This document shows positions 11,936 to 22,033 of a stretch of DNA of 64,000 nucleotides, piece by piece (the stretch's first letter is position 1; every line of letters starts with the position of its first letter). Origin of the DNA: Phycisphaera sp. (GTDB taxonomy: Bacteria > Planctomycetota > Phycisphaerae > Phycisphaerales > Zrk34); contig WGMA01000024.1 of NCBI GenBank assembly GCA_016125285.1, positions 1 to 64,000 of the forward strand. The letters are read 5' to 3'. The notes under the pieces are model-generated. The model was not told the DNA's origin, did not search any database, and saw only the letters and a list, made by a program, of their open reading frames with translations. Both the position numbers and the translations under genes were made by a program.

Positions 11936-12973
11936 TCACCGCCGCGCCACGCGCACCACCCGCCGATCACCCTCGACCTCCTCCACCGTCACGTCCACGT
12001 CGACAAACCGCTTGATCAGCTCGATGTGCGTCGTCGCGTGCAGCGTCAGCGGCATCGTCGTGAATGCGCCCTCGCCCGCGATCGCCAGCGGCAACAGCAG
12101 CTGATCCGCCAGGTGCGGGCCGACCGGCACGTCGCTGTCGATCCACGCGCGTGCCTCCGTCAGCACCTCGCGCGCCACCACCTCCGCCTTGACGCCGCGT
12201 CGCCCGAACGCGATGAACAACTCCCGCGCCTTCACCGCTCGCACCTCGATCGTCAACACGTTGCCCGGCCCCGGCGAGGGCACGTCCTCCACGAACGCCC
12301 GAGACCCGCCCCACCACGGCACGCTCGTCACCTTACGCAGCTCGCGCTCGGCGATGTGCCGCGGCAGGTTCGACACGATCGCCCGCGCCAGCTTCTCGTC
12401 GATCCCGCCACGCTCGTGCAACTCGAAACCGCGCAGCACGCCGCCCGCCGCCGGCTCGACCCTCACGCGCACGCTGCCGCCCCCCGCCGGGTAAAACCCG
12501 CAACGCTCCAGGTCCACCGTCACCGTCGGCCCCATCCGGTTGATCAGCGGCACGTACACACGCTCTACGAAATCGAACGGCGGACCGCCCGGGTTGTGCG
12601 TCCCGCCCTCCAGCGTCACACGCGAAGTCCCCTCCGCCACGAGCAACGCCGGGAGGATCGTCTGCAGCACCAGCATCGTGCTGCCCGCCGTGCCGATCGA
12701 AAACCGGTAGTCGCCCGCGCGCACCACGCCGGGCTTGAACACGAACCGACACGACCCGACGTCCGCGCCCTCGATGTCCGCGCCGCAGACCTGCCCCGCC
12801 GCGCGGATCGCCGTGGCGTGCTGACGACGCAGGCCCGGCTTGTCACGCCCGGCGCGCACGTTGACCACCTCGATCGCCCGCCCCGTCAGCATCGCCAACG
12901 CGACCGACGACCGCACGATCTGCCCGCCGCCCTCGCCGAACGAACCGTCAATCTGGAGCAGGTCACCGTCCAT
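11936..12973 (-). CDS. rtcA: RNA 3'-terminal phosphate cyclase
   Basis: A 345-residue protein. It converts RNA 3'-phosphates to 2',3'-cyclic phosphates (and can adenylate 5' ends) through an AMP-histidine intermediate; His316 in TTHIEL is the likely nucleophile by position. Family motifs seen: DGSFGEGGGQIVRSS (9-23), GRDKPGLRRQH (42-52), SIGTAGST (92-99), GGTHNPGGPPFDF (123-135) and HLADQLLLPLA (287-297). It is 3 bases downstream of the oxygenase gene and follows the Ro60, Y-RNA and tRNA island on the same strand. In other bacteria rtc genes are often linked to Ro60. No rtcB is in the window. Confidence 0.95.
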   Translation of the reverse strand: MDGDLLQIDGSFGEGGGQIVRSSVALAMLTGRAIEVVNVRAGRDKPGLRRQHATAIRAAGQVCGADIEGADVGSCRFVFKPGVVRAGDYRFSIGTAGSTMLVLQTILPALLVAEGTSRVTLEGGTHNPGGPPFDFVERVYVPLINRMGPTVTVDLERCGFYPAGGGSVRVRVEPAAGGVLRGFELHERGGIDEKLARAIVSNLPRHIAERELRKVTSVPWWGGSRAFVEDVPSPGPGNVLTIEVRAVKARELFIAFGRRGVKAEVVAREVLTEARAWIDSDVPVGPHLADQLLLPLAIAGEGAFTTMPLTLHATTHIELIKRFVDVDVTVEEVEGDRRVVRVARR

Positions 12974-12976
12974 CGT

Positions 12977-13537
12977 TTACTCCGGTCGATACATCACGTC
13001 GGTCCGCAGCACGTACTTGACGCCCTCGCGCACCGGATCGCCCTGATGATGCACCTCGTGGGTGAACAGCAACGCCGTGCCGCGCACGGGCTCGACGGTG
13101 CAATACGTGAACGACGTCCGGCCACCCACGAAGTCGTCGTTGAGGTAGATCATGAAGGTCAATCGGCTCCGCTCGCCGTTTTCTCGGCGAAACGCGCCGT
13201 CGCGATGCCAACGAAACCGCTGCCCCGACTCATATCGATAGAACCGCAAGCGTTCGTTAAGCCCGATCGCGTGCCAGAGTCCGATCTTCGTCGGAACGTA
13301 GTCCTTGACGCGACGCCACAGGTCGGCGGCGCGATCAAGGTCGTCGACCATCGCCCGCCGGTTGTTGCGCACGTCAGAGACGACGAAATCGCCGTAGCCC
13401 GTCGAGATCGGCGCCTCGACGAACCCGACGCCCTCAGCGAACGCAATGTACGCCGCGCATTCCTCCGCAGAGAGCACGTCGGAGACGGTGAACACGTCAT
13501 CGTTGTACTGGCGGTACTCGCTCATCGGGGAGTCCAT
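12977..13537 (-). CDS. Prolyl-4-hydroxylase-like 2-oxoglutarate/Fe(II) oxygenase
   Basis: A 186-residue protein with the P4H-type double-stranded beta-helix core: His111 and Asp113 (WHRDG), the distal His164 (EVHHQG) and a basic residue at the 2-oxoglutarate site (Lys174 or Arg178 in VKYVLRTDV). Such enzymes hydroxylate protein side chains or small molecules. It precedes rtcA by 3 bases and is probably co-transcribed with it; a role in RNA or translation-factor modification would fit but is not shown. A shorter start (Met5, 13525) is possible. Confidence 0.82.
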   Translation of the reverse strand: MDSPMSEYRQYNDDVFTVSDVLSAEECAAYIAFAEGVGFVEAPISTGYGDFVVSDVRNNRRAMVDDLDRAADLWRRVKDYVPTKIGLWHAIGLNERLRFYRYESGQRFRWHRDGAFRRENGERSRLTFMIYLNDDFVGGRTSFTYCTVEPVRGTALLFTHEVHHQGDPVREGVKYVLRTDVMYRPE

Positions 13538-13631: not shown

Positions 13632-13728
13632 AACTGGGAACGCGGATCTCGGAACGCGGAACTGCTGCATCAAACGGATTGACGCACCGTTGGATCACTT
13701 CCGCGTTGCGAGATCCGCGTTCCCACTT
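13632..13728. repeat. Heptamer tandem-repeat hairpin (GGAACGC family)
   Basis: The left arm (13632-13662) consists of GGAACGC/GGATCTC-type heptamers. The right arm (13697-13728) is the inverted complement. It lies between the last tRNA of the array and the oxygenase gene and could terminate or protect the transcript. Confidence 0.7.
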
Positions 13729-13732
13729 GGAA

Positions 13733-13806
13733 TGGCCCTGGCAGGATTCGAACCTGCACCGTGCGGCATCTCGGGCCGCTGCCTCTGCCGGTTGGGCTAC
13801 AGAGCC
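13733..13806 (-). tRNA. tRNA with anticodon GAG (Leu), lacking a long variable arm
   Basis: Complete cloverleaf: 7-bp acceptor (GGCTCTG/CAGGGCC), T-arm loop TTCGAAT, anticodon loop CCGAGAT. The variable loop is only 5 bases and position 33 is C instead of the usual U, unlike normal class II tRNA-Leu. Last tRNA of the array; no CCA encoded. Confidence 0.85.
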
Positions 13807-13832
13807 GATGGTGGACGCGCGTCCGACCGGGG

Positions 13833-13935
13833 CGTGACGACAAAATGGCGAAGAAACATGACGACCGACGCATCGAGCCGGTCGGTGGGAGTCGAACCCA
13901 CAAACCCAATGTAGTTCCTTACAGCATTCGCCACG
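13833..13935 (-). ncRNA. Y-RNA-like element 7
   Basis: Outer stem CGTGGCGA/TCGTCACG; internal loop ATGCT opposite a strand ending in TTTTG; inner stem AAGGAAC/GTTTCTT; then TACATTGG. The apical module has a T-arm (GTGGG, loop TTCGACT, CCCAC) and a capped acceptor-like stem CGACCG/CGGTCG but no D-arm. It is the closest of the seven to the terminal tRNA. Confidence 0.75.
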
Positions 13936-14001
13936 GCCGGGTCGGACCCCGGCCAAAACGTCCGCCGGCGTGTCGGCGCCGGGCGAACGACTATGAAAAG
14001 G

Positions 14002-14148
14002 CGTGACGACGAGTGGTTGTGAAACGGTTTACGCGCTCTGCCAACTGAGCTACGGGCCCGTCGATCGCCTCGCGGCAATGGACCCGGTCGGACTCGAACC
14101 GACGACCTCGGGAGCCAAATCCATGTAGTTCCACGGGCATTCGTCACG
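14002..14148 (-). ncRNA. Y-RNA-like element 6 with permuted tRNA-like module
   Basis: Outer stem CGTGACGA/TCGTCACG (8 bp), internal loop ATGCCC opposite AACCACTCG, inner stem GTGGAAC/GTTTCAC, then TACATGG. The apical module reads T-arm, acceptor 3' strand CGGGTCC, a 20-base cap, acceptor 5' strand GGGCCCG, then a full D-arm (GCTC..GAGC). It is a circularly permuted tRNA whose anticodon arm is replaced by the Ro-site stem. A CCTTTT tract follows. Confidence 0.85.
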
Positions 14149-14165
14149 ACTGCGTGAACGCGGCG

Positions 14166-14316
14166 CCGCAGCAAGATTGGACCAGACTGAGTTTTGGACG
14201 CCGTAGAAGCGTGACGCGCACGCCCACTGGGCCGGGGCTCGCCGCGTGTGCGACGAGACCGCTTCACCTTCGTGGCTACCTTAGGTCCGTCATGTAGTCC
14301 GGGCCCGCATCTGCGG
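14166..14316 (-). ncRNA. Y-RNA-like element 5 without tRNA-like module
   Basis: Outer stem CCGCAG/CTGCGG, internal loop ATGCGG opposite CAATCTTG, inner stem GCCCGGAC/GTCTGGTC with one mismatch, then TACATG. The apical part (about 95 bases) has its own stems (GACGGACC with GGTC-T-CGTC; CGCAC with GTGCG) and no T-loop. It fits the common architecture but is the most divergent element. Confidence 0.65.
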
Positions 14317-14340
14317 ACTCCGCAAGTATCTCGAAAAGGA

Positions 14341-14456
14341 CGACGACAAGGGGCGGCGAAACAATGCTCCCAATGAGCACGCCGGCATGTACGCGGCGGG
14401 CGCCGCAAGGCCGGCGAATGGAGTTGAACCAATGTAGTTCCACCAGGCATTCGTCG
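14341..14456 (-). ncRNA. Y-RNA-like element 4 with T-arm, acceptor-like stem and D-arm
   Basis: Outer stem CGACGA/TCGTCG, internal loop ATGCCT opposite GCCCCTTG, inner stem GGTGGAAC/GTTTCGCC, then TACATTGG. The module has a T-loop TTCAACT, a 7-bp acceptor-like stem CGCCGGC/GCCGGCG capped by a small hairpin, and a D-arm-like hairpin TGCTC/GAGCA. A CCTTTT tract follows. Confidence 0.78.
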
Positions 14457-14466
14457 TATGTGCGAT

Positions 14467-14622
14467 GCGTTCGGTGACGAGTAGATGACGAGACGATTTT
14501 TTGAGCTAGTGCGGCACACTCATCAAACAATGAAATACCGCACCCGGGGATTGAACCCGGAACCTCCCAAGTGAACGTCGGGCGCTCTTACCATGTAGTC
14601 CCATCGGGCATTCGCCGATCGC
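14467..14622 (-). ncRNA. Y-RNA-like element 3: permuted tRNA opened in the D-loop, anticodon arm kept
   Basis: Outer stem TCGGCGA/TCACCGA (one mismatch) extended by GCG/CGC, internal loop ATGCCC opposite ATCTACTCG, inner stem GATGGGAC/GTCTCGTC, then TACATGG. The module is a full tRNA in permuted order: D-stem GAGC, anticodon stem CCCGA/TTGGG with loop CGTTCAC, T-arm (loop TTCAATC), acceptor GTGCGGT, a 21-base cap, acceptor GCCGCAC, D-stem GCTC. The Ro stem is inserted in the D-loop. Confidence 0.85.
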
Positions 14623-14651
14623 GATCGTTTGTGTAAGCACATCGTTCAAAA

Positions 14652-14802
14652 GGTCGTTGGCGACAAGGTTCTGACGAGACATTTCGGTGTGCCTGCCCAT
14701 GCACCACCGGAGCAGCTGTCGCCCCGGGCGGGAGTCGAACCCGCAAAGCCGCTTGCGCGGCGCCGAATTGAATGTAGTCCCACCGGCATTCGCCGTTCGA
14801 CC
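14652..14802 (-). ncRNA. Y-RNA-like element 2: permuted class II tRNA opened in the anticodon loop
   Basis: Outer stem GGCGA/TCGCC extended by GGTCG/CGACC, internal loop ATGCCG opposite AGAACCTTG, inner stem GGTGGGAC/GTCTCGTC, then TACATTC. The module has an anticodon stem CCGAA/TTCGG, a long variable arm (GCCGC, GCAA tetraloop, GCGGC), a T-arm (loop TTCGACT), acceptor CCGGGGC, a short cap, acceptor GCTCCGG and a D-arm GTGC/GCAC. It mimics a Ser- or Leu-type tRNA without an anticodon. CCTTTT follows. Confidence 0.87.
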
Positions 14803-14812
14803 GTTTGAGGAA

Positions 14813-14884
14813 CACGCCGACGAGTTCGTTGCCGAGACTTGGTTATGGTTAACAGCCATGTAGTCCCGACGGGCATTCGGCGTG
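14813..14884 (-). ncRNA. Y-RNA-like element 1, minimal form
   Basis: Only 72 bases. Outer stem CACGCCGA/TCGGCGTG (8 bp perfect), internal loop ATGCCC opposite AACGAACTCG, inner stem GTCGGGAC/GTCTCGGC, then TACATGG and a small hairpin (ATGG/CCAT). It has the Ro-site architecture without a tRNA-like module and lies 69 bases after the Ro60 stop codon on the same strand. Confidence 0.82.
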
Positions 14885-14952
14885 TCCGAATCGCGGCCGC
14901 CGCCGTTAGACGACGGCCGCATCTCCTAAAAGAGGTTGAGGTTGTTGTTGAA

Positions 14953-16533
14953 TCACAGGGTCACCGAGCGGACCTGGTTGACCCAGTGGCCCTGCTCGGT
15001 CGCGCCCTGCGCGACGTCGGCGATGAATCGGAAAACCTGGTCCGAGAAGCCGCCGACGTTGATCACGTCCGGCCGCTCCTTCGCCTGCGTCGAGCCGTAC
15101 GGCTGGATGTCGATGCAGACGAGCTTCGCCTTCGGGTTGCGCTTCTTGAACGCCGACCACTCCTTCATGGTCCGCGTCGCGGTGCTGCCCGCCGTTCGAC
15201 CATGCAGCGGCGAGTCCATCCACGACTCGTTGTCCGAGACGTAGATGACCATTTCGGCGCGAGCCTTGCGACGGTTCAGTTCCGCCAGGGGCGCCGAGCA
15301 GTCCGTACCGCCCGGCGGCTGACGCGTCAGTCGCTCGGCGTTGGTCATGACCGAGTCGCGCGGGTTCAGGCGGACGCCGCGAACCTTCTCGGCGAACGGG
15401 ACGACCTCGGCCGTATCGTTGCGACGGAGGACCGCCGCCGCGAACAGGGCCGCGACGTCCACGCAGCGCACCTTGCTGGTCGCGCCGGTGCGGAAGCCGG
15501 TGACCGGGCTCTGCATCGAGCCCGAGACGTCCGGGCAGACGACCACGCGGCCGTCGACCTTCGGCACGTTCTCGATCGCGATCTCCATCGCGTCCTGCAG
15601 GGCGTTGGTCACGGCCTTCGGGATGCCCGTCGCGGTGTTGAGGTACGCGACCATCAACTGGTACGGCATCACGCGCGAACGCGCGATCGCCTCGCGGTTA
15701 CGCAGGCGGTTGGCGACCACGCCGACCATCTCACGCTTCTCGAACACGCCGTGGCGTGCGAAGGTGTTCAGGTTCATGCGCGTCGTCTGCCACGACGCGT
15801 GACGCGCGACGTCGATCCAGTCCTTGACCGTGAGGTTCAACGCCGTGAGCATCTGCATCGGCACGTCCGGCACGTCGACCTTGCCGGCGTTGGTGTTGCG
15901 CTTGAACTTCTCGTAGTGCTTGACCAGGTCCGGCAGCGCCTCGGCGTCGTGAGCGCGACCGATGAGGTAACCGTACAGGGCCTCACGCGACGCGCCCGTC
16001 GGCTTCGGGTGCGCCATCTTGATCACGTCGGCGAGCGACGGGCTCTTGCCGATCGAGCCGACGAACAGCTGCGTGTCCGTGCGGGCGTCGAACCAGCGTC
16101 GGATCATCCGCTTCGGCAGCGAGCCGAGCGACTTGCGCCCCGTCACGCCGCTGCGCATGATCTGCACGAAGTTGCGGAGCATCTTCGCGTTGTCGATCAC
16201 GCGGTCGAACGCCTTGGCGAACAGCTGCGGGTCACGCGAGCTGAGCACCGCCAGCAGGATCGCCGGCATGTCCTTCATGTACCCACGCTCGCGAGCGAAC
16301 ACGGCCAGCTTCGCGATGAACTCGCTGTCGACGCGGCCGCACAGCGACAGGACCGTGTCGAGCTGCTCCTCGGCCGACGCGTAGAACGTCGCGTTGATGC
16401 AGCCCGTCGCCGCGTACTGGGCCAGGGCGTGGGTCGCGTCGAAGCCGTACGCGCGGCCCCCCGCCTCGTTGAAGGTATCCGTCTTCGGCGCGAGCACGCC
16501 GCGCCCCGAACCAAACAGCGCCTTGTTTGCCAT
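14953..16533 (-). CDS. rsr: Ro60 ortholog (TROVE plus von Willebrand A domain)
   Basis: A 526-residue protein. The TROVE HEAT-like ring occupies roughly residues 1-300 and binds Y RNAs and misfolded RNA ends. The vWA domain (about 328-526) carries the MIDAS motif Asp335-x-Ser337-x-Ser339. In Deinococcus the ortholog tethers Y RNA to polynucleotide phosphorylase and acts in rRNA maturation and decay of structured RNA. The start is ATG 16533, preceded by an excellent GGAGGT 6 bases upstream; the longer open frame runs into a tRNA. It is embedded in the tRNA array and followed directly by seven Y-RNA-like elements. Confidence 0.95.
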   Translation of the reverse strand: MANKALFGSGRGVLAPKTDTFNEAGGRAYGFDATHALAQYAATGCINATFYASAEEQLDTVLSLCGRVDSEFIAKLAVFARERGYMKDMPAILLAVLSSRDPQLFAKAFDRVIDNAKMLRNFVQIMRSGVTGRKSLGSLPKRMIRRWFDARTDTQLFVGSIGKSPSLADVIKMAHPKPTGASREALYGYLIGRAHDAEALPDLVKHYEKFKRNTNAGKVDVPDVPMQMLTALNLTVKDWIDVARHASWQTTRMNLNTFARHGVFEKREMVGVVANRLRNREAIARSRVMPYQLMVAYLNTATGIPKAVTNALQDAMEIAIENVPKVDGRVVVCPDVSGSMQSPVTGFRTGATSKVRCVDVAALFAAAVLRRNDTAEVVPFAEKVRGVRLNPRDSVMTNAERLTRQPPGGTDCSAPLAELNRRKARAEMVIYVSDNESWMDSPLHGRTAGSTATRTMKEWSAFKKRNPKAKLVCIDIQPYGSTQAKERPDVINVGGFSDQVFRFIADVAQGATEQGHWVNQVRSVTL

Positions 16534-16623
16534 GGCGCACCTCCGGAAACATGCGGAGCGGCATTCGCCCGGCCACACGCCGCGCGACAACATCGCCCCC
16601 GGAATGAAATGCAGAATCGAGAA

Positions 16624-16696
16624 AGACCCCGGCAGGGATCGAACCTGCGGCCTCCGCCTTCGCACGGCGACGCTCTTCCGGCTGAGCTACGAGGTC
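16624..16696 (-). tRNA. tRNA-Arg (anticodon GCG)
   Basis: Acceptor GACCTCG/CGGGGTC, D-arm GCTC/GAGC, anticodon loop GTGCGAA, T-loop TTCGATC. It lies immediately upstream of the Ro60 gene. No CCA encoded. Confidence 0.92.
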
Positions 16697-16702
16697 AGAT
16701 TC

Positions 16703-16763
16703 AGGGGACAGGAGACAGGTGACAGGAGGCAGTCGGACGCTCCATCTGTCTCCTGTCTCCTGA
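16703..16763. repeat. Heptamer tandem-repeat hairpin (GGAGACA family)
   Basis: Degenerate GGAGACA/GGTGACA heptamers (16703-16733) face the inverted TGTCTCC array (16745-16763), giving a hairpin in the spacer between tRNA-Arg and the Cys-anticodon tRNA. Confidence 0.7.
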
Positions 16764-16774
16764 CCGCTGGATCA

Positions 16775-16859
16775 AGCGCGGTGTGGGACTCGAACCCACG
16801 CGGGGCCATCGGCCCATCGGCTTTGCAGGCCGATGCCTTCGCCACTTGGCTAACCGCGC
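16775..16859 (-). tRNA. tRNA with anticodon GCA (Cys) and a long variable arm
   Basis: Acceptor GCGCGGT/ACCGCGC, anticodon stem TCGGC/GCCGA with loop CTGCAAA, T-loop TTCGAGT. The 17-base variable region forms a GGGCC/GGCCC stem, making this a class II tRNA. Standard bacterial tRNA-Cys has a short variable loop. Confidence 0.9.
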
Positions 16860-16866
16860 ACGTGAA

Positions 16867-16939
16867 TCGACCCGGGCGGACTTGAACCGCCGACCTCCCG
16901 ATTATCAGTCGAGCGCTCTGCCATCTGAGCTACGAGTCA
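16867..16939 (-). tRNA. tRNA-Ile (anticodon GAT)
   Basis: Acceptor TGACTCG/CGGGTCG, D-arm GCTC/GAGC, anticodon loop CTGATAA, T-loop TTCAAGT. Confidence 0.93.
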
Positions 16940-16944
16940 ATGAA

Positions 16945-17018
16945 TCGCGGTGGTGGGATTCGAACCCACGCTCTCCGGGTTATGAGCCCAGCGGGGACAG
17001 CCGCTCCCCTACACCGCA
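16945..17018 (-). tRNA. tRNA-Met (anticodon CAT), initiator-like
   Basis: Anticodon loop CTCATAA on a stem with three consecutive G-C pairs (GGG/CCC), a feature of initiator tRNA. The first acceptor pair is U-G rather than the C-A mismatch of E. coli initiator, so initiator or elongator identity is open. D-stem GGGG/CCCC; T-loop TTCGAAT. Confidence 0.88.
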
Positions 17019-17019
17019 A

Positions 17020-17091
17020 TGGACCATCTCGGGATTGAACCGAGACCTGCCGGGCTTCAACCGGCCGCTCTTCCGATTGAGCTAACGGTCC
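17020..17091 (-). tRNA. tRNA-Phe (anticodon GAA)
   Basis: Acceptor GGACCGT/ATGGTCC, anticodon stem GCCGG/CCGGC with loop TTGAAGC, T-loop TTCAATC. Confidence 0.93.
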
Positions 17092-17097
17092 TTTGTG

Positions 17098-17202
<105 letters not shown>

Positions 17203-17205
17203 GTA

Positions 17206-17365
17206 CGGAGCGACGTGTCGGCGTCGGCGGGTCGAAGGCACCCCGGCGCCGCGTTCGGTTCGGATGCCATGGACCCAAGGCCCCCGCGAGGGCCCCCTTC
17301 GGATGCTGAGTCGAAGGCCTCGTCCCTGTCACTGGCCGCCCTGCCAACGCCGACACGTCGCTCCG
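17206..17365. repeat. 160-base element closed by an 18-bp perfect inverted repeat
   Basis: CGGAGCGACGTGTCGGCG (17206-17223) is the exact inverse of 17348-17365. The interior holds imperfect repeats (GTCGAAGGC twice, TTCGGATGC twice) and a GGCCCCCGCGAGGGCCCCC hairpin. It has no tRNA or Y-RNA signature. It could be a structured RNA or a small mobile element remnant. Confidence 0.6.
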
Positions 17366-17379
17366 CGATCGATCAACAA

Positions 17380-17452
17380 TCCTCCCGGGTGGATTCGAAC
17401 CACCGCATCGCTGTTTGTAAGACAGCTGCTCTGGCCGCTGAGCTACGGGAGA
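17380..17452 (-). tRNA. tRNA-Val (anticodon TAC)
   Basis: Acceptor TCTCCCG/CGGGAGG, anticodon stem GCTGT/ACAGC with loop CTTACAA, T-loop TTCGAAT. Confidence 0.93.
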
Positions 17453-17458
17453 GAATTC

Positions 17459-17614
17459 ATTTGGTGATTTGGTGAAGTGGTGATTTGGTGAAGTAAAGTC
17501 GGAAGTGGGATCTGGGAACGCGGAAGTAGGCGACGCCGCCAGTTCCGCAATCCGAGTTCCGAGTTCCAACTTGGATCACTTCACCAAATCGCCACTTCGC
17601 CAAATCACCAAATG
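17459..17614. repeat. Nested tandem-repeat hairpin (octamer arms outside, GGAACGC heptamers inside)
   Basis: Outer arms 17459-17495 and 17575-17614 are TTTGGTGA octamers and their inverse. Inner arms 17499-17527 and 17541-17572 are GGAACGC/GGATCTG heptamers and their inverse. One family is nested exactly inside the other; 18181-18326 has the same nesting. Confidence 0.8.
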
Positions 17615-17621
17615 AATCGAA

Positions 17622-17693
17622 TCAGGCTGGAAGGATTCGAACCTACGCGTACGTGTTCCCGAAACACGCGCTCTGCCGCTGAGCTACAGCCTG
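17622..17693 (-). tRNA. tRNA-Pro (anticodon CGG)
   Basis: Acceptor CAGGCTG/CAGCCTG, anticodon stem CGTGT/ACACG with loop TTCGGGA, T-loop TTCGAAT. One T-stem mismatch (position 50-64). Confidence 0.92.
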
Positions 17694-17696
17694 TGG

Positions 17697-17768
17697 GGTG
17701 ACCGACGGGACTTGAACCCGTACCCCCGGACTCACACTCCGGTACTCTGCCGATTGAGCTACGATCAC
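17697..17768 (-). tRNA. tRNA-His (anticodon GTG)
   Basis: Acceptor GTGATCG/CGGTCAC with discriminator C, anticodon stem CCGGA/TCCGG with loop GTGTGAG, T-loop TTCAAGT. The base at -1 is T, so the extra G of tRNA-His is not encoded at the expected place. Confidence 0.92.
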
Positions 17769-17770
17769 AA

Positions 17771-17844
17771 TGGCCCCGGCGGGATTCGAACCTGCACTGG
17801 ACGGTGTCTGAAGCCGCTCCCTCTGCCGATTGGGGTACGGAGCC
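17771..17844 (-). tRNA. tRNA with anticodon CAG (Leu), lacking a long variable arm
   Basis: Acceptor GGCTCCG/CGGGGCC, anticodon loop TTCAGAC, 5-base variable loop, T-loop TTCGAAT. It is similar in body to the GAG and CAA tRNAs of the array. Mismatches at 31-39 and 51-63. Confidence 0.82.
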
Positions 17845-17850
17845 AAGTTG

Positions 17851-17941
17851 ATTTCGGATTGCGGATTTGGGATTGCGGATTGAAACCCAAACCCGAAAGT
17901 CGCTTGCCAAATCCGAAATCCGAAATCACAAATCCGAAATT
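17851..17941. repeat. Heptamer tandem-repeat hairpin (GGATTGC family)
   Basis: Left arm 17851-17882 (GGATTTC/GGATTGC heptamers), right arm 17907-17941 the inverted complement. Confidence 0.75.
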
Positions 17942-17946
17942 GACGA

Positions 17947-18019
17947 AGCCCCCGGCTGGACTCGAACCAGCACCTCCCGCTTTAGAAGAGCGGCACTCTT
18001 CCGCTTGAGCTACGAGGGC
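17947..18019 (-). tRNA. tRNA-Arg (anticodon TCT)
   Basis: Acceptor GCCCTCG/CGGGGGC, anticodon stem CCGCT/AGCGG with loop CTTCTAA, T-loop TTCGAGT. Confidence 0.93.
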
Positions 18020-18020
18020 G

Positions 18021-18093
18021 TTGGCAGGAGACACGAGACAGGAGACAGTGGACAGTGGGACTATCCGACTGTCTCCTGGTTCCTGTCTCCTGC
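18021..18093. repeat. Heptamer tandem-repeat hairpin (GGAGACA family)
   Basis: GGAGACA-type heptamers at about 18023-18058 face the inverse at about 18068-18093. Confidence 0.65.
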
Positions 18094-18099
18094 CGAAAG

Positions 18100-18171
18100 C
18101 ACGGCCGGCAGGATTTGAACCTGCATCCTCCGGTTTTGGAGACCGGCGCTCCGCCGTTGAGCTACGGGCCG
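18100..18171 (-). tRNA. tRNA-Trp (anticodon CCA)
   Basis: Anticodon stem CCGGT/ACCGG with loop CTCCAAA, D-arm GCTC/GAGC, T-loop TTCAAAT. The acceptor stem pairs well only if one C on the 5' strand is bulged, so the 5' boundary is uncertain by 1-2 bases and function may be reduced. Confidence 0.82.
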
Positions 18172-18180
18172 CGTGTTGCA

Positions 18181-18326
18181 TTTGGTGATTTGGTCTTGCT
18201 TAACTCAGAAGTGGGAACTCGGAACGCGGAACACGGAAGCGGGCGGCGCGATCAGTTCCGCGATCCGAGTTCCGAGTTCCCACTTGCATCACATCACCAA
18301 ATCGCCACTTCACCAGATCACCAAAT
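18181..18326. repeat. Nested tandem-repeat hairpin (octamer outside, GGAACGC heptamers inside)
   Basis: Octamer arms 18181-18197 and 18288-18326 enclose heptamer arms 18207-18238 and 18254-18284, the same order as at 17459-17614. Confidence 0.75.
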
Positions 18327-18328
18327 AA

Positions 18329-18402
18329 ATAGGGGCGGCTGGATTCGAACCAACACCTTGCGGAGTTTGAGTCCGCTGCCTCTGCCGTTGGGCTACGCCC
18401 CC
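18329..18402 (-). tRNA. tRNA with anticodon CAA (Leu), lacking a long variable arm
   Basis: Acceptor GGGGGCG/CGCCCCT, anticodon stem GCGGA/TCCGC with loop CTCAAAC, variable loop AAGGT, T-loop TTCGAAT. A well-paired class I cloverleaf with a Leu anticodon. Confidence 0.87.
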
Positions 18403-18551
18403 ACAACCTGAATCGTGACGACCGGACCGGACCGCGCCCGGAAGGGCTCATCCATCACCCCCGGAACAATCCCGGAACCACGGCGGGTTCAAATCAACTT
18501 TCTCCCCTCCGCGATCCGTATCCGGTCGCCACGATCATGAAGCGCTGCGCA

Positions 18552-18632
18552 TGTGCCGAGCAGGAGTCGAACCTGCAAGCCCTCTCGGGCGCGGGGTTAC
18601 AGCCCGCTTGGCTCACCGATGCCAGTCAACAC
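18552..18632 (-). tRNA. tRNA-Tyr (anticodon GTA)
   Basis: Class II: variable arm GCCC-GAGA-GGGC as expected for bacterial tRNA-Tyr. Acceptor GTGTTGA/TCGGCAC, anticodon stem GCGGG/CCCGC with loop CTGTAAC, T-loop TTCGACT. Position 8 is C instead of U. Confidence 0.88.
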
Positions 18633-18654
18633 GTGATGCGTGCTCAGCACGCAA

Positions 18655-18727
18655 TGGACCGACCAGGGACTCGAACCCTGAACTTCTCTGTGCAAGAGAG
18701 ACGCGTTTCCGGTTACGCCAGTGGCCC
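18655..18727 (-). tRNA. tRNA-Ala (anticodon TGC), copy 1
   Basis: Anticodon stem TCTCT/AGAGA with loop CTTGCAC, D-stem GCGT/ACGC, T-loop TTCGAGT. The acceptor (GGGCCAC with GTCGGTCC) pairs fully if one C on the 3' strand is bulged; the G-U pair that specifies Ala is then kept. Confidence 0.82.
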
Positions 18728-18745
18728 AGATTCGATGCGATGCAA

Positions 18746-18817
18746 TGGAGCTGGCAGGACTCGAACCCGCATCCCCCGCTTGCAAGGCGGGCACTCTGCC
18801 TGTTGAGTTACAGCCCC
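18746..18817 (-). tRNA. tRNA-Ala (anticodon TGC), copy 2
   Basis: Acceptor GGGGCTG/CAGCTCC with the alanine identity pair G3-U70, anticodon stem CCCGC/GCGGG with loop CTTGCAA, T-loop TTCGAGT. Confidence 0.93.
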
Positions 18818-18823
18818 GAACAA

Positions 18824-18898
18824 CGCCCCCAGGGGGACTTGAACCCCCGACCTTCCGGTTGACAACCGGGTGCTACCTGCCGTCTGAGCTATGAGGGC
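18824..18898 (-). tRNA. tRNA-Asp (anticodon GTC)
   Basis: Acceptor GCCCTCA/TGGGGGC with discriminator G, anticodon loop TTGTCAA on a CCGG/CCGG stem, T-loop TTCAAGT. Confidence 0.92.
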
Positions 18899-18904
18899 GG
18901 ATTG

Positions 18905-18990
18905 AAGTGGGAACGCGGAACTCGGAACGCGGAAGTGTTCCGATCTGCATCGCGAATCACTTCCGCGTTCCGCGATCCCACTTTCCACTT
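18905..18990. repeat. Heptamer tandem-repeat hairpin (GGAACGC family)
   Basis: Left arm 18905-18936, right arm 18958-18990; GGAACGC/GGAACTC heptamers and inverse. Confidence 0.75.
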
Positions 18991-18995
18991 ATGAA

Positions 18996-19068
18996 TGGCT
19001 TCGGTGGGATTCGAACCCACATCCAACCGCTTAAGAGGCGGCTGCTCTGCCAGTTGAGCTTCAAAGCC
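18996..19068 (-). tRNA. tRNA-Lys (anticodon CTT)
   Basis: Acceptor GGCTTTG/CGAAGCC, anticodon stem GCCGC/GCGGT with loop CTCTTAA, T-loop TTCGAAT. Position 8 is A instead of U. Confidence 0.9.
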
Positions 19069-19074
19069 GTGAAG

Positions 19075-19171
19075 TGATTTCGGATTGCGGATTGCGGATT
19101 TCGGATTTGAAACCAGCGCCCGACGGTGCCTGCCCAATCCGAAATCCGAAATCGAAAATCCGAAATCGAAA
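19075..19171. repeat. Heptamer tandem-repeat hairpin (GGATTGC family)
   Basis: Left arm 19075-19108, right arm 19133-19171; GGATTGC/GGATTTC heptamers and inverse. Confidence 0.75.
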
Positions 19172-19244
19172 TGGCCCCCGCAGGAGTCGAACCTGCAACC
19201 CTCCGGGTAAAAGCCGGACGCTCTGCCGGTTGAGCTAAGGAGCC
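19172..19244 (-). tRNA. tRNA-Lys (anticodon TTT)
   Basis: Acceptor GGCTCCT/GGGGGCC, anticodon stem TCCGG/CCGGA with loop CTTTTAC, T-loop TTCGACT. Confidence 0.92.
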
Positions 19245-19346
19245 GATGCCAACGTGAACGGCGACGGAACCGGGTCGAGCCGAGCAGGGACAGGGACTCG
19301 GATCAGCGAAGCTGGAGCCCGGCCCAACCCGGGTTCCATCGCCAAA

Positions 19347-19417
19347 AGCCAGCGGCGGGAATCGAACCCGCATCTACACCGTGGCATAGTGTCGTTCTGC
19401 CGTTGAACCACGCCAGC
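19347..19417 (-). tRNA. tRNA-Gly (anticodon GCC)
   Basis: Acceptor GCTGGCG/CGCTGGC, anticodon stem ACACT/GGTGT with loop ATGCCAC, T-loop TTCGATT. Confidence 0.93.
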
Positions 19418-19418
19418 G

Positions 19419-19453
19419 TTCATTTGGTGATTTGGTGAAGTGGTGATTTGGTG
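19419..19453. repeat. Single arm of the TTTGGTGA octamer family
   Basis: Four tandem octamers without the matching inverse nearby. Confidence 0.65.
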
Positions 19454-19477
19454 CGCCATCACCCGGTTTCGAAGAAG

Positions 19478-19549
19478 AGCCGGCAGTGGGAGTTGAACCC
19501 ACAACCCCTCCATTACGAGTGGAGAGCTCTGCCGTTGAGCTACACCGGC
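19478..19549 (-). tRNA. tRNA-Thr (anticodon CGT)
   Basis: Acceptor GCCGGTG/TGCCGGC, anticodon stem CTCCA/TGGAG with loop CTCGTAA, T-loop TTCAACT. Confidence 0.93.
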
Positions 19550-19552
19550 AAT

Positions 19553-19632
19553 TCAGGGATCAGGAATCAGTAGTCAGTGACCAGCGCGACGCCCGTGCCC
19601 ACACGCGACAAACTGACTACTGACCACTGACA
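19553..19632. repeat. Heptamer tandem-repeat hairpin (CAGTAGT family)
   Basis: Left arm 19553-19583 (CAGTAGT/CAGTGAC-type heptamers), right arm 19612-19632 the inverse. Confidence 0.7.
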
Positions 19633-19636
19633 CAAC

Positions 19637-19709
19637 AGCTATCGGCGGGAGTCGAACCCACGGCCTCGTTCGTACCAGGAACGCGCTCTGCCAACTGAGC
19701 TACGACAGC
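19637..19709 (-). tRNA. tRNA-Thr (anticodon GGT)
   Basis: Acceptor GCTGTCG/CGATAGC, anticodon stem CGTTC/GAACG with loop CTGGTAC, T-loop TTCGACT. Confidence 0.93.
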
Positions 19710-19797
19710 ATCAACAATCGCGAGACTCGGGTCCGGGGACTCGACCGGCTGAGAGAACCGGGAGTCGACCGCGGACCTGAATCCCGCATACCCACGG

Positions 19798-19882
19798 AAA
19801 GGAGACAGGTGACAGGCAACAGCCCAGCGGATCGCGCGCTGCACTGTCTCCTGTCTCCTGTTTCCTGTTTCCTGTCCCCTGA
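19798..19882. repeat. Heptamer tandem-repeat hairpin (GGAGACA family)
   Basis: Left arm from 19799, right arm to about 19880; GGAGACA variants and the inverse TCCTGTC/TTCCTGT. Confidence 0.7.
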
Positions 19883-19889
19883 TCAACAA

Positions 19890-19963
19890 CCGGCCCGGCG
19901 GGACTCGAACCCGCATCCTCCTGATTCAAAGTCAGGCGCTCCGGCCGATTGAGCTACGGGCCC
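19890..19963 (-). tRNA. tRNA-Gln (anticodon TTG)
   Basis: Acceptor GGGCCCG/CGGGCCG with an unpaired 1-72 (G-G), discriminator G, anticodon stem CCTGA/TCAGG with loop CTTTGAA, T-loop TTCGAGT. A weak first pair is typical for tRNA-Gln. Confidence 0.9.
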
Positions 19964-19965
19964 GG

Positions 19966-20047
19966 TTCCAGGAGCCAGTGGGCAGGAGACAGGAGCCAGA
20001 AGACGGCGCGTCGTACTGACACCTGACTCCTGACACCTGACCACTGA
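19966..20047. repeat. Mixed heptamer repeat region between tRNA-Gln and tRNA-Gly
   Basis: GGAGACA/GGAGCCA heptamers at 19966-20000 and CTGACAC/CTGACTC heptamers at 20016-20047; partial inverse complementarity. Confidence 0.6.
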
Positions 20048-20050
20048 AAA

Positions 20051-20122
20051 AGCGGACAGCGGGGATCGAACCCGCGCCACCGGTTTGGAAGACCGGTGCT
20101 CTGCCGATTGAGCTACATCCGC
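20051..20122 (-). tRNA. tRNA-Gly (anticodon TCC)
   Basis: Acceptor GCGGATG/TGTCCGC, anticodon stem CCGGT/ACCGG with loop CTTCCAA, T-loop TTCGATC. Confidence 0.93.
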
Positions 20123-20136
20123 GCTTTGATGGTGAG

Positions 20137-21060
20137 TTACTTCGAGTCGTTCGACGGCTTGTTCAGCCAGCCCATGCGCTTCATCCACGTGGCGCATCGG
20201 TCGGGCCAGGTGGTGACCGGCTCGTCGGTGCGACGCAGGCCGTAGCCGTGTCCGCCGAACGGGTAGATGTGCACCTCCGCGGTGCCGCCGACGCGTTTGA
20301 TCTCCGCGGCGAGCAGCAGCGAGCTCAGCGGCGTGACGTGATCGTCGAACGCCTGCGCGAAGAACATCGGCGGGGTCGTCTTGTCGGCCTTCACGTCGTC
20401 GTAGAGCTTGCCGGCCTTCGCGTCGGCGAGGTACGCCGGGTAGACCAGCACCGCGAAGTCGGGCCGGGCCGAGAGCTTGTCTGCGTCATCGATCGGGTCG
20501 TACAACTGCTCGGCGTGCTTCAGCGCGGTGAGCGCCGCGGCGTTGCCCCCGGCGGAAAAGCCGAGTACACCGACACGCCGCGGATCGATCGTCCACCTCT
20601 CCGCGTTGGCGCGCACGAGGCGGATCGCACGCTGCGTGTCCTGCACGGCGGCGAGCCACCGCTTGTCCTTGTCACGGGCCGGGACGCGGTACTTGAGCAC
20701 GATGCCGGTCACGCCGATCGAGTTGAGCCAGTCGGCGACCTCCGTGCCCTCGAGGTCGAGCGCGAGGATGTGGTAGCCGCCGCCGGGGCAGATCACGATC
20801 GCGGCGCCGGTGTCCTTGTCGGGCGCGGGCTTGTACACGGTGATGGTCGGCGTCGAGACGTTGCCGAGGCGGATGAGCCGACGCCCGGCCACGAGCCCGG
20901 ACTTCTCGTTCGTCGTGTCGGCCTCGGGCGGCAGTTTCAGGTCGGCGTCGCCCGGAGGCGTGCTCGGCCAGACGTTCATCTCCACAGGATCGGCGGCGAT
21001 CGCCGCGTCACCCAGCAGACCCATCGTCAACACCATCGTCAGCATCATCATGTATCGCAT
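20137..21060 (-). CDS. Secreted alpha/beta-hydrolase, acetyl-xylan esterase/lipase type
   Basis: A 307-residue protein with a signal peptide (about residues 1-22, ending AIA-ADP) and an alpha/beta-hydrolase of the BD-FAE/esterase group: oxyanion loop CPGGGYH, nucleophile elbow GFSAGG, acid in FDDHVTP, and catalytic His in GGHGYG. Likely an exported carbohydrate or lipid esterase. It is the only ordinary enzyme gene inside the tRNA array (between tRNA-Gly and tRNA-Gln, same strand), so it looks like an insertion into the array or a passenger gene. Confidence 0.87.
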   Translation of the reverse strand: MRYMMMLTMVLTMGLLGDAAIAADPVEMNVWPSTPPGDADLKLPPEADTTNEKSGLVAGRRLIRLGNVSTPTITVYKPAPDKDTGAAIVICPGGGYHILALDLEGTEVADWLNSIGVTGIVLKYRVPARDKDKRWLAAVQDTQRAIRLVRANAERWTIDPRRVGVLGFSAGGNAAALTALKHAEQLYDPIDDADKLSARPDFAVLVYPAYLADAKAGKLYDDVKADKTTPPMFFAQAFDDHVTPLSSLLLAAEIKRVGGTAEVHIYPFGGHGYGLRRTDEPVTTWPDRCATWMKRMGWLNKPSNDSK

Positions 21061-21130
21061 AGTTTGTGCCCATGTACGAGTAGCGAATGGTTCGACGCAT
21101 CAGCATAACGTCACAGGAATCGTACGCGAA

Positions 21131-21204
21131 CTGGCCCGGCAGGGATCGAACCTGCAACCTCCCGCTTCAGAGGCGGGCGCTCTCCCGGGTTGAGCTACAA
21201 GCCA
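21131..21204 (-). tRNA. tRNA-Gln (anticodon CTG)
   Basis: Acceptor TGGCTTG/CGGGCCA with the U1-A72 pair typical of tRNA-Gln, discriminator G, anticodon stem CCCGC/GCGGG with loop CTCTGAA, T-loop TTCGATC. Confidence 0.94.
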
Positions 21205-21208
21205 TCAA

Positions 21209-21281
21209 TGACCGCGGCAGGACTCGAACCTGCAACCGTCCGGTTCGAAGCCGGGGACTCGTCCGATTGAGCTTCGCGGTC
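21209..21281 (-). tRNA. tRNA-Arg (anticodon TCG)
   Basis: Acceptor GACCGCG/CGCGGTC, anticodon loop CTTCGAA, T-loop TTCGAGT. Position 8 is A instead of U; one mismatch at 27-43. Confidence 0.9.
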
Positions 21282-21299
21282 GTGTGTTGTGAGTGTGAA

Positions 21300-21371
21300 C
21301 TGGCGCAGCGGGATTCGAACCTGCATCTGGGCGGTTAACAGCCGCCTGCTCTACCGTTGAGCTACACGCCA
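21300..21371 (-). tRNA. tRNA-Asn (anticodon GTT)
   Basis: Acceptor TGGCGTG/TGCGCCA, discriminator G, anticodon stem GGCGG/CCGCC with loop CTGTTAA, T-loop TTCGAAT. Confidence 0.93.
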
Positions 21372-21379
21372 ATAGGAAA

Positions 21380-21465
21380 CGGAAGGTGAGGGAGTCGAAC
21401 CCCCAAGGCTGGTTAGGCTCCGCTGTTTTCGAGACAGCTTCCGTCGCCGATCGGATTGACCTTCC
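21380..21465 (-). tRNA. tRNA-Ser (anticodon CGA)
   Basis: Class II with a long variable arm. Acceptor GGAAGGT/ACCTTCC, discriminator G, anticodon stem GCTGT/ACAGC with loop CTCGAAA, T-loop TTCGACT. Confidence 0.93.
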
Positions 21466-21473
21466 TAATGGAA

Positions 21474-21564
21474 AGGAGAGAGTGGGATTCGAACCCACGG
21501 GAGACGTGTCCGCCTCCTGCGCCTTAGCACGGCGCCGCGTTCGGCCAGGCTCCGCCACCTCTCC
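21474..21564 (-). tRNA. tRNA-Ser (anticodon GCT)
   Basis: Class II. Acceptor GGAGAGG/TCTCTCC, anticodon stem GCGCC/GGCGC with loop GTGCTAA, 20-base variable arm, T-loop TTCGAAT. Confidence 0.93.
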
Positions 21565-21568
21565 GCAA

Positions 21569-21641
21569 CAGCCCCAGGGGGATTCGAACCCGCCATCATC
21601 CGATTGAAAGACGGACATCTTCGCCATTGGACCATGGGGCC
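21569..21641 (-). tRNA. tRNA-Glu (anticodon TTC)
   Basis: Acceptor GGCCCCA/TGGGGCT, discriminator G, anticodon loop CTTTCAA, T-loop TTCGAAT. Mismatches at 31-39 and 50-64. Confidence 0.88.
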
Positions 21642-21649
21642 GAAGGTGC

Positions 21650-21735
21650 AGCAGTCAGTGGTCAGTATTCAGTAGTCAGTTCTATAGAATGATTCAGATT
21701 ACTGATTCCTGACTACTGATACCTGACTTCTGCAT
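21650..21735. repeat. Heptamer tandem-repeat hairpin (CAGTAGT family)
   Basis: Left arm 21650-21680 (CAGTGGT, CAGTATT, CAGTAGT heptamers), right arm 21700-21735 the inverse. Confidence 0.75.
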
Positions 21736-21738
21736 AAG

Positions 21739-21811
21739 CAGCCCCAGTGGGAATCGAACCCTACGTCTTCCGGTAGAGAGCCGGACGTCCGTTCCGCTGG
21801 ACCATGGGGCC
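21739..21811 (-). tRNA. tRNA-Glu (anticodon CTC)
   Basis: Acceptor GGCCCCA/TGGGGCT, anticodon stem TCCGG/CCGGA with loop CTCTCTA, T-loop TTCGATT. The T-stem has only three pairs. It is a sister of the TTC tRNA at 21569. Confidence 0.87.
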
Positions 21812-21917
21812 GTAACCGCCCCCGGAAGCCCGGGGGCGGGTTGTGCTCACATCAAGGCGATTCACTTGTCAAAGACCGCTGTAATCACCGCGTTTAGACG
21901 CGATGAAGGCGTAACAA

Positions 21918-21999
21918 TAGCCCCGGCAGGATTTGAACCTGCACGCCGTTGCGGCATCGGTTTCTAAGACCGACGCGTCTCCCGTTCCGCCACGGGGCC
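21918..21999 (-). tRNA. tRNA-Leu (anticodon TAG), normal class II
   Basis: Acceptor GGCCCCG/CGGGGCT, anticodon stem TCGGT/ACCGA with loop CTTAGAA, variable arm with GCCG..CGGC stem, T-loop TTCAAAT. It is the first tRNA of the array; its 5' end directly touches the poly-U tract of terminator 2. Confidence 0.93.
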
Positions 22000-22033
22000 A
22001 AATAAAAAACCCGGCGACCTGAGTCACCGGGTT
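22000..22033 (-). terminator. Terminator 2 (attenuator) directly before the tRNA array
   Basis: On the minus strand an 11-bp stem (AACCCGGTGAC / GTCGCCGGGTT, loop TCAG) is followed by TTTTTTATTT. The 5' arm and loop contain GTGACTCAG (22027-22019), exactly complementary to CTGAGTCAC at 22061-22053, which begins two bases after the leader stop codon. The two pairings exclude each other. Confidence 0.85.

Follow-up and report, generated by a model that had tools for sequence, protein, structure and literature searches.

Seven YrlA-type Y RNA elements with tRNA-like and 23S rRNA-like apical modules at a planctomycete Ro60 locus

We describe a cluster of seven consecutive bacterial Y RNA elements directly after the Ro60 gene of a planctomycete, the largest number at any of the loci that we compared. 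The cluster was found in a 64-kb stretch of DNA that was analysed in its entirety and is referred to below as the window; the elements, E1 to E7, occupy positions 13833-14887 of the minus strand, between the Ro60 gene and tRNA-Leu(GAG). The sequences and structures of the elements, their genomic linkage and their recurrence in other genomes are shown here. Their apical modules include tRNA-like structures entered at either of two points and a segment shared with 23S rRNA, and the explanation that we favour, with moderate confidence, is that the elements are modular Ro60 adaptors displaying mimics of translation RNAs. Expression, Ro60 binding, partners and function are all inferred in this explanation.

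The Ro60 locus and its Y RNA elements

The Ro60 open reading frame (14953-16665, minus strand) matches Pfam vWA_Ro60 (7.8e-15), Pfam TROVE and the solved D. radiodurans Rsr structure (PDB 2nvo, 4e-20), and the protein is 58-65% identical to many relatives. We placed its likely start (MANKALFGSG) at about 16533 because the longer frame, to 16665, overlaps tRNA-Arg. On a practical level, the Pfam TROVE profile used alone missed the Ro60 of this genome in a genome search. The first Y element, E7, begins 65 nt past the Ro60 stop codon, and at the other end of the cluster the start of rtcA lies ∼0.9 kb beyond the Y RNAs, with tRNA-Leu and a 2OG-Fe(II) oxygenase gene in between. Only one RtcB was found in the genome, and it is encoded on a different contig from rtcA (G000:C48:6436-7521, L229). 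Read along the minus strand, the features of the locus are:

16624..22000, minus strand: array of 31 tRNA genes upstream of Ro60 and on the same strand (ARAGORN)
14953..16533, minus strand: Ro60/Rsr gene
14810..14887, minus strand: E7, short Y RNA found by the scan, with a 24-nt tip and no tRNA module
14661..14795, minus strand: E6, YrlA-like, with T arm, acceptor-like stem, degenerate D arm and an extra hairpin resembling a variable arm
14471..14618, minus strand: E5, Y RNA whose tip is a complete tRNA cloverleaf, permuted so that it opens in the D loop (unconstrained fold)
14495..14597, minus strand: apical module of E5, GGTAAGAGC / CCCGA-CGTTCAC-TTGGG / T arm / loop-closed acceptor stem / TAGCTCA
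14343..14457, minus strand: E4, YrlA-like, with degenerate T arm, acceptor-like stem and D-arm hairpin
14166..14316, minus strand: E3, Y RNA with a 23S rRNA-like module (scan score 12.6)
14275..14293, minus strand: copy within E3 of the 23S H69 3′ strand and H70, ATGACGGACCTAAGGTAGC, 18/19 identical to the organism's own 23S
14002..14148, minus strand: E2, canonical YrlA type entered at the anticodon arm, with T arm, loop-closed acceptor-like stem and D arm
13833..13935, minus strand: E1, reduced Y RNA with only a T arm and an acceptor-like closing stem
13733..13806, minus strand: tRNA-Leu(GAG), directly after the Y RNAs
12977-13537, minus strand: 2OG-Fe(II) oxygenase gene, between the Y RNA cluster and rtcA
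11936..12973, minus strand: RtcA, RNA 3′-terminal phosphate cyclase (Pfam RTC, 3.6e-75)

The elements were identified with a motif-plus-stem scan requiring an outer stem, an ATGC strand and an inner stem ending in AC before TAC; we relied on such scans and on shuffles rather than on a single covariance model because apical insertions of 24-109 nt defeat one model. The scan of the window returned exactly seven elements, all on the minus strand, and the same scan of ten shuffled windows gave zero matches at a score of ≥13. A strict pattern, CGAATGCN{2,9}GGRACTACAT, is matched by six of the seven and nowhere else in the 6.1 Mb genome; the element outside it is E3, a variant with AGATGC instead of GAATGC. 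In each element the outer helix leads into an AUGC strand and then into an inner helix that ends in RAC before UACA; after a variable apical insertion, the 3′ half returns through the complement of the inner strand and a CUUG-type strand to the second strand of the outer helix. The AUGC/CUUG internal loop and the inner helix on the basal stem are present in 7/7 elements and conserved in 239 elements.

Because the scanner itself requires pairing, an unbiased test of the stems must use pairs outside the six that it demands. Among the 239 distinct elements, pairing extended beyond the required six more often than with shuffled partners at the first (79% vs 44%), second (68% vs 41%) and third (65% vs 40%) additional pair. 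The overall fold was better than that of shuffled sequences for E7 (z-score −3.1) and E4 (−3.2) and no better for E3 (−0.7), E6 (−0.8) or E2 (−1.3). All of this evidence is sequence-based, and many of the relatives are metagenome-assembled genomes. An initial annotation of the window had proposed seven consecutive Y-RNA-like elements directly after a Ro60 gene, had quoted complementary outer and inner stem pairs, and had called for support for these stems in relatives. The proposal held with respect to the scan, the stem tests in relatives and the identity of Ro60; the quoted pairs are all present on the minus strand, and the support in relatives is supplied by the pairs beyond the scanned six in the 239 elements. 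Its span of 13833-14884 is corrected here to 13833-14887.

We assign the seven elements to the bacterial YrlA-type Y RNAs found at Ro60 loci; their binding to Ro60 is inferred, as there are no pull-down data. The Rfam YrlA model (RF02553) matched E2 with 65.6 bits (E 2e-14), E6 with 37.1 (3.9e-6), E4 with 36.0 (8e-6) and E1 with 30.7 (3e-4), all below its gathering score of 69, and left E3, E5 and E7 unmatched (E5 with none at E≤10); the model covers only one apical topology. Operons of the form rsr-yrlBA-rtcBA have been described for Salmonella (PMC7790460), and the YrlA encoded there is, like the elements of the window, located near Ro60 and RtcA and built on the same Ro-binding stem. The window differs from that arrangement in having seven copies, in an E5 that is entered at the D loop and keeps its anticodon arm, in an E3 that has a 23S segment replacing the tRNA, and in the reduced E7 and E1. 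E7 resembles YrlB (RF02565) in being short and without a tRNA-like module, but reaches just 20 bits against a gathering score of 97. The Rfam Deinococcus_Y_RNA model gave no meaningful match to the elements. For the Deinococcus Y RNA, which forms the RYPER complex of Ro60, Y RNA and PNPase, the expected mode in common is as tether and gate of Ro60, with PNPase binding by our elements inferred from the literature only.

The initial annotation had also likened the CTTG-type strand to the ACUUG of animal Y RNAs. The appropriate yardstick is bacterial YrlA, in which the YTYG strand is the usual CUUG of the Rfam consensus. Animal Y RNAs share the idea of a Ro60-binding stem and a CUUG-like strand, but no match of the elements to the Rfam animal Y families was reported, and bacterial Y RNAs have been described as not homologous with vertebrate clades (PMC4726728), so that the likeness is one of analogy only. 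The same annotation had called seven elements unusual and had left their diverse apical modules unidentified. The modules can now be described: they mimic either tRNA, in one of two topologies, or 23S rRNA. The claim about number held with a qualification. A single scanner was applied to 143 loci. Besides the window, this set included Ro60 relatives taken from GTDB contigs and whole genomes, together with some weak vWA matches and a few contigs of viral origin. At least one Y element was found at 114 of the 143, showing that clusters near Ro60 are normal; the window has the maximum of seven, the remaining loci have 0-5 and the commonest count is two. However, clusters of 2-4 are common, and the Planctomycetia, in which the cluster lies upstream of Ro60 and the scaffold has diverged (CGAC-UGCC ... 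GGAGU-ACAU ... ACUCU ... CUUC-GUCG), reach 5 elements with verified stems and ∼5-6 when motif-level members are included.

Apical modules resembling tRNA

A tRNA-like domain is present in at least one Y RNA of the species, in canonical form in E2 and as a cloverleaf in E5. The permuted order of YrlA (T arm, acceptor stem, D arm) is common to E2, E4 and E6, and by sequence E2 is a textbook YrlA, with E4 and E6 as degraded versions of the same permuted tRNA mimic. Tips entered at the anticodon arm also predominate elsewhere, with 84 of 133 large inserts fitting the corresponding grammar at a score of ≥10. Short first Y RNAs like E7 were likewise found in L044, L045, L048 and L051. The possibility that the tips are recent captures from neighbouring tRNA genes was not supported: their best local scores to the organism's own tRNAs were 20-33, below the yardstick of 34 given by the mean similarity of an ordinary tRNA to its nearest tRNA, and they showed no preference for members of the tRNA array.

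E5 departs from the YrlA order, which E2 fits. In its unconstrained fold the D stem GAGC/GCTC closes a junction of anticodon arm, T arm and acceptor stem; the anticodon arm (CCCGA-CGTTCAC-TTGGG, 5 bp with a 7 nt loop) precedes the T arm, and a loop connects the two ends of the acceptor stem. The sequence retains marks of the tRNA core, namely TA-GCTC-A, GG before the D stem and TTCAA in the T loop. The grammar score of E5 for this arrangement, 22.8, exceeds those of all 2260 nulls planted with a T arm (maximum 21.1), although the score alone is lenient. The arrangement recurs in 12 other loci, bringing the total to four phyla: Planctomycetota (L047, L186, L197, L199), Acidobacteriota (L092, L093, L098, L100), Alphaproteobacteria (L122, L124, L155) and Verrucomicrobiota (L154). 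A junction with ≥3 branches forms in the unconstrained fold of E5 and of 9/12 of the other loci, and in 8/10 of these it is closed by the same GAGC/GCTC stem. The anticodon-arm, T-arm and acceptor helices of the members differ in sequence yet pair. A scan of viral contigs and 392 genomes of the phylum with the D-loop-entry tip pattern found no Y RNA.

It could be argued that E5 and E2 are permuted tRNA genes, matured to working tRNAs by RNase P/Z and RtcB, and the four arms and loop-joined acceptor ends of E5 are what such a gene would offer. We regard this as very unlikely. The E5 anticodon loop has G instead of U at position 33, the acceptor is closed by a loop, and a re-ordered E5 was not accepted by ARAGORN, leaving the criteria for a functional tRNA unmet; Glu tRNAs (TTC, CTC) are already present twice in the genome. 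The anticodon loop is shortened or altered in most other members, and its usual replacement indicates that decoding is not the purpose of the D-loop-entry modules.

Two members of the class have individual features. L092 (7353-7497), from the Acidobacteria, resembles a permuted class II tRNA in that its variable arm is long and its anticodon loop, CTAAGAA, has 7 nt. In L047 (10112-10239), from a relative of the same order as the window, the anticodon arm is capped by a TTCG tetraloop.

An apical module resembling 23S rRNA

The tip of E3 opens with ATGACGGACCTAAGGTAGC, the reference for which is the organism's own 23S rRNA (locus L272), and we take this segment to comprise the 3′ strand of H69 and its continuation into H70, in the region of m5U1939 (E. 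coli numbering). Compared with ∼3 kb of 23S, E3 scored 16.5, whereas none of 400 dinucleotide shuffles exceeded 13.5, and when all distinct apical inserts were compared with the whole 23S, the top two, from L087 and E3, fell on one site. By the tRNA grammars E3 contains neither the canonical nor the D-loop-entry module, and it was rejected as a tRNA mimic with a score of 14.5 against a null maximum of 16.5.

In a pattern search of Ro60-bearing genomes, eight from Planctomycetia (L258, L260-L264, L266, L270) proved to carry the segment at a distance of 660-940 bp upstream of Ro60, as copies apart from the true 23S genes. These copies sit within the Y RNA scaffold, with 7-10 paired positions per stem. 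That of L260 is identical over 29/29 nt to the 23S of the window's organism and then continues into a short hairpin, while L263 and L270 additionally retain the TGAATGGC strand of 23S. In two Burkholderiales (L108, L111), AACGGTCCTAAGGT occurs within GGCGAATGCCAGTGAAC ... GTTTCAC ... CTTGTCGCC, downstream of Ro60, and in the Acidobacteriota L087 is a clear member and L092 the weakest, at noise level by score. A reversed-query control scored ≤13, against 14-29 for the clear 23S-like members. The segment always lies within a few nt after the Ro-stem strand, and its register is therefore conserved. A second apparent 23S site, shared by L083, L047 and L084 at about position 1382 of the 23S piece, we attribute to a similarity of T-loop-like hairpins and do not count.

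One objection is that E3 resembles 23S by chance or contains a stray piece of rRNA, for instance from an insertion at a homing site. In its favour, the segment belongs to the most conserved parts of 23S, which makes fragments of it easy to recognise, and E3 was not found in relatives of the same order. We nonetheless consider this very unlikely, since the score is above those of all 400 shuffles and since the same site, at the same position after the Ro stem, occurs in at least ten further Y RNAs from three phyla with their Ro stems intact. The E3-type module is absent from ∼20 Ro60 loci of the same order, which makes the function of E3 in this organism less certain than in its Planctomycetia relatives. 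E3 also lacks the H71-like hairpin seen in the Planctomycetia versions, and it is possible that it is a relict or was newly gained in this lineage.

No description of a 23S-mimic class of Y RNA was found in Rfam or the searchable literature. For permuted-tRNA Y RNAs the searchable literature yielded nothing and is incomplete enough that D-loop-entry tips might already be described. The 23S-mimic and D-loop-entry classes are likely to be new variants of Y RNA.

Adaptors, decoys and the neighbouring tRNA genes

In the adaptor explanation, one constant Ro-binding stem, formed by the outer helix, the AUGC/CUUG loop and the inner helix, would carry exchangeable apical modules. The large modules would mimic translation RNAs, either a tRNA entered by the anticodon arm (E2, E4, E6 and the reduced E1), a tRNA entered by the D loop (E5) or the H69-H70 junction of 23S rRNA (E3), and each member of the set would serve Ro60 as an alternative adaptor and gate. 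The individual tips are predicted to recruit, or compete for, proteins that handle tRNA or 23S rRNA; candidate partners are modification enzymes, maturation or repair factors, and PNPase, which is already known from the RYPER complex. Under stress, the Ro60 ring may in this way be steered to the processing and decay of tRNA or rRNA. YrlA has been reported to tether Rsr to PNPase and to be a substrate of DusA and TruB (PMC8394870), and in D. radiodurans Rsr assists 23S maturation, with the Y RNA restraining it (PMC4030889).

A bolder reading, which we consider likely, is that bacterial Y RNAs form a modular display system, in which one Ro60-binding handle presents a repertoire of translation-RNA mimics that extends beyond the single known tRNA mimic to include the 23S H69-H70 and D-loop-entry classes, with the window as the richest example found. 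The roles of bacterial Ro60 and Y RNAs are poorly understood, and the tip known so far imitates tRNA. Rsr is reported to act in 23S maturation and rRNA decay; a 23S H69-H70 tip whose register is shared by three phyla accords with this role and provides a direct way into the question of how Ro60 could be guided to rRNA. For the D-loop-entry class, binding partners different from those of YrlA are predicted, and both tip classes make the question of adaptor versus decoy testable by tip swaps.

The main rival, which we think unlikely, is that the tips are decoys that bait ribonucleases attacking tRNA or 23S H69/H70, such as anticodon nucleases and MazF-type toxins, so that the real targets are shielded while RtcA and RtcB repair damage. 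Several observations speak for it: RtcA is adjacent and RtcB is encoded elsewhere in the genome, H70 is cut by MazF-mt3 and MazF-mt6 (PMC5408214), a decoy role for YrlA against an anticodon nuclease has been proposed earlier (PMC7790460), and the same locus contains a divergent second set of tRNAs. However, the UUCCU cleavage site of these MazF toxins is missing from the copied segment of E3 and its relatives, and simple cleavage decoys are thereby weakened; most D-loop-entry modules are without a 7-nt anticodon loop, and the nuclease that was studied left the Salmonella YrlA uncut (PMC7790460).

In a further rival explanation, the Y RNAs do no more than titrate Ro60. The role of all seven would be to gate Ro60 or to stabilise it; their tips would be stable folds that can stand in for one another, and the resemblance to other RNAs would mainly serve the processing of transcripts shared with the tRNA array. 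The Y RNAs do have tRNA genes of the same strand on either side, the spacers between the Y RNAs showed no promoter-like sites, and E7-type Y RNAs do without a large tip. Against it, the same two kinds of RNA have been copied repeatedly across phyla with their register conserved, and Y RNA clusters without a tRNA array occur (L044-L048). We judge titration alone to be improbable.

Together with tRNA-Leu(GAG), the 31 array tRNAs make 32 genes (13733-22000, minus strand) that constitute a near-complete second tRNA set, ∼60-85% identical to the tRNAs of the same anticodon elsewhere in the genome; the array members closest to Ro60 are tRNA-Cys(GCA) and tRNA-Arg(GCG) (16624-16859). The Anabaena trn operon, a stress-induced tRNA array (PMC10272220), is likewise a large secondary array alongside a housekeeping set, but the planctomycete array is set apart by its linkage to Ro60, Y RNAs and RtcA. 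At the Ro60 loci of the window's close relatives, tRNAs are few or absent. In Planctomycetia, tRNA genes also occur beside the Y cluster, often tRNA-Arg and tRNA-Cys(GCA), with 14 in L258 and 6 in L263; given these similar neighbours, linkage of tRNA genes to Ro60 and Y RNAs recurs in the phylum. The presence of tRNA genes beside Y clusters in several planctomycete lineages suggests that their linkage with Ro60 loci is old.

Two further observations concern the tRNA genes of these loci. Where the Y cluster lies upstream of Ro60, tRNA-Arg, often with tRNA-Cys(GCA), is found beside it in L257-L261, L263, L264 and L266. In the window, the spacers of the tRNA array (13632-13728, 16700-20050) are rich in imperfect inverted and direct repeats, including GGAACGCGGAA..., GTCTCCT repeats and TTTGGTGATTTGGTG.
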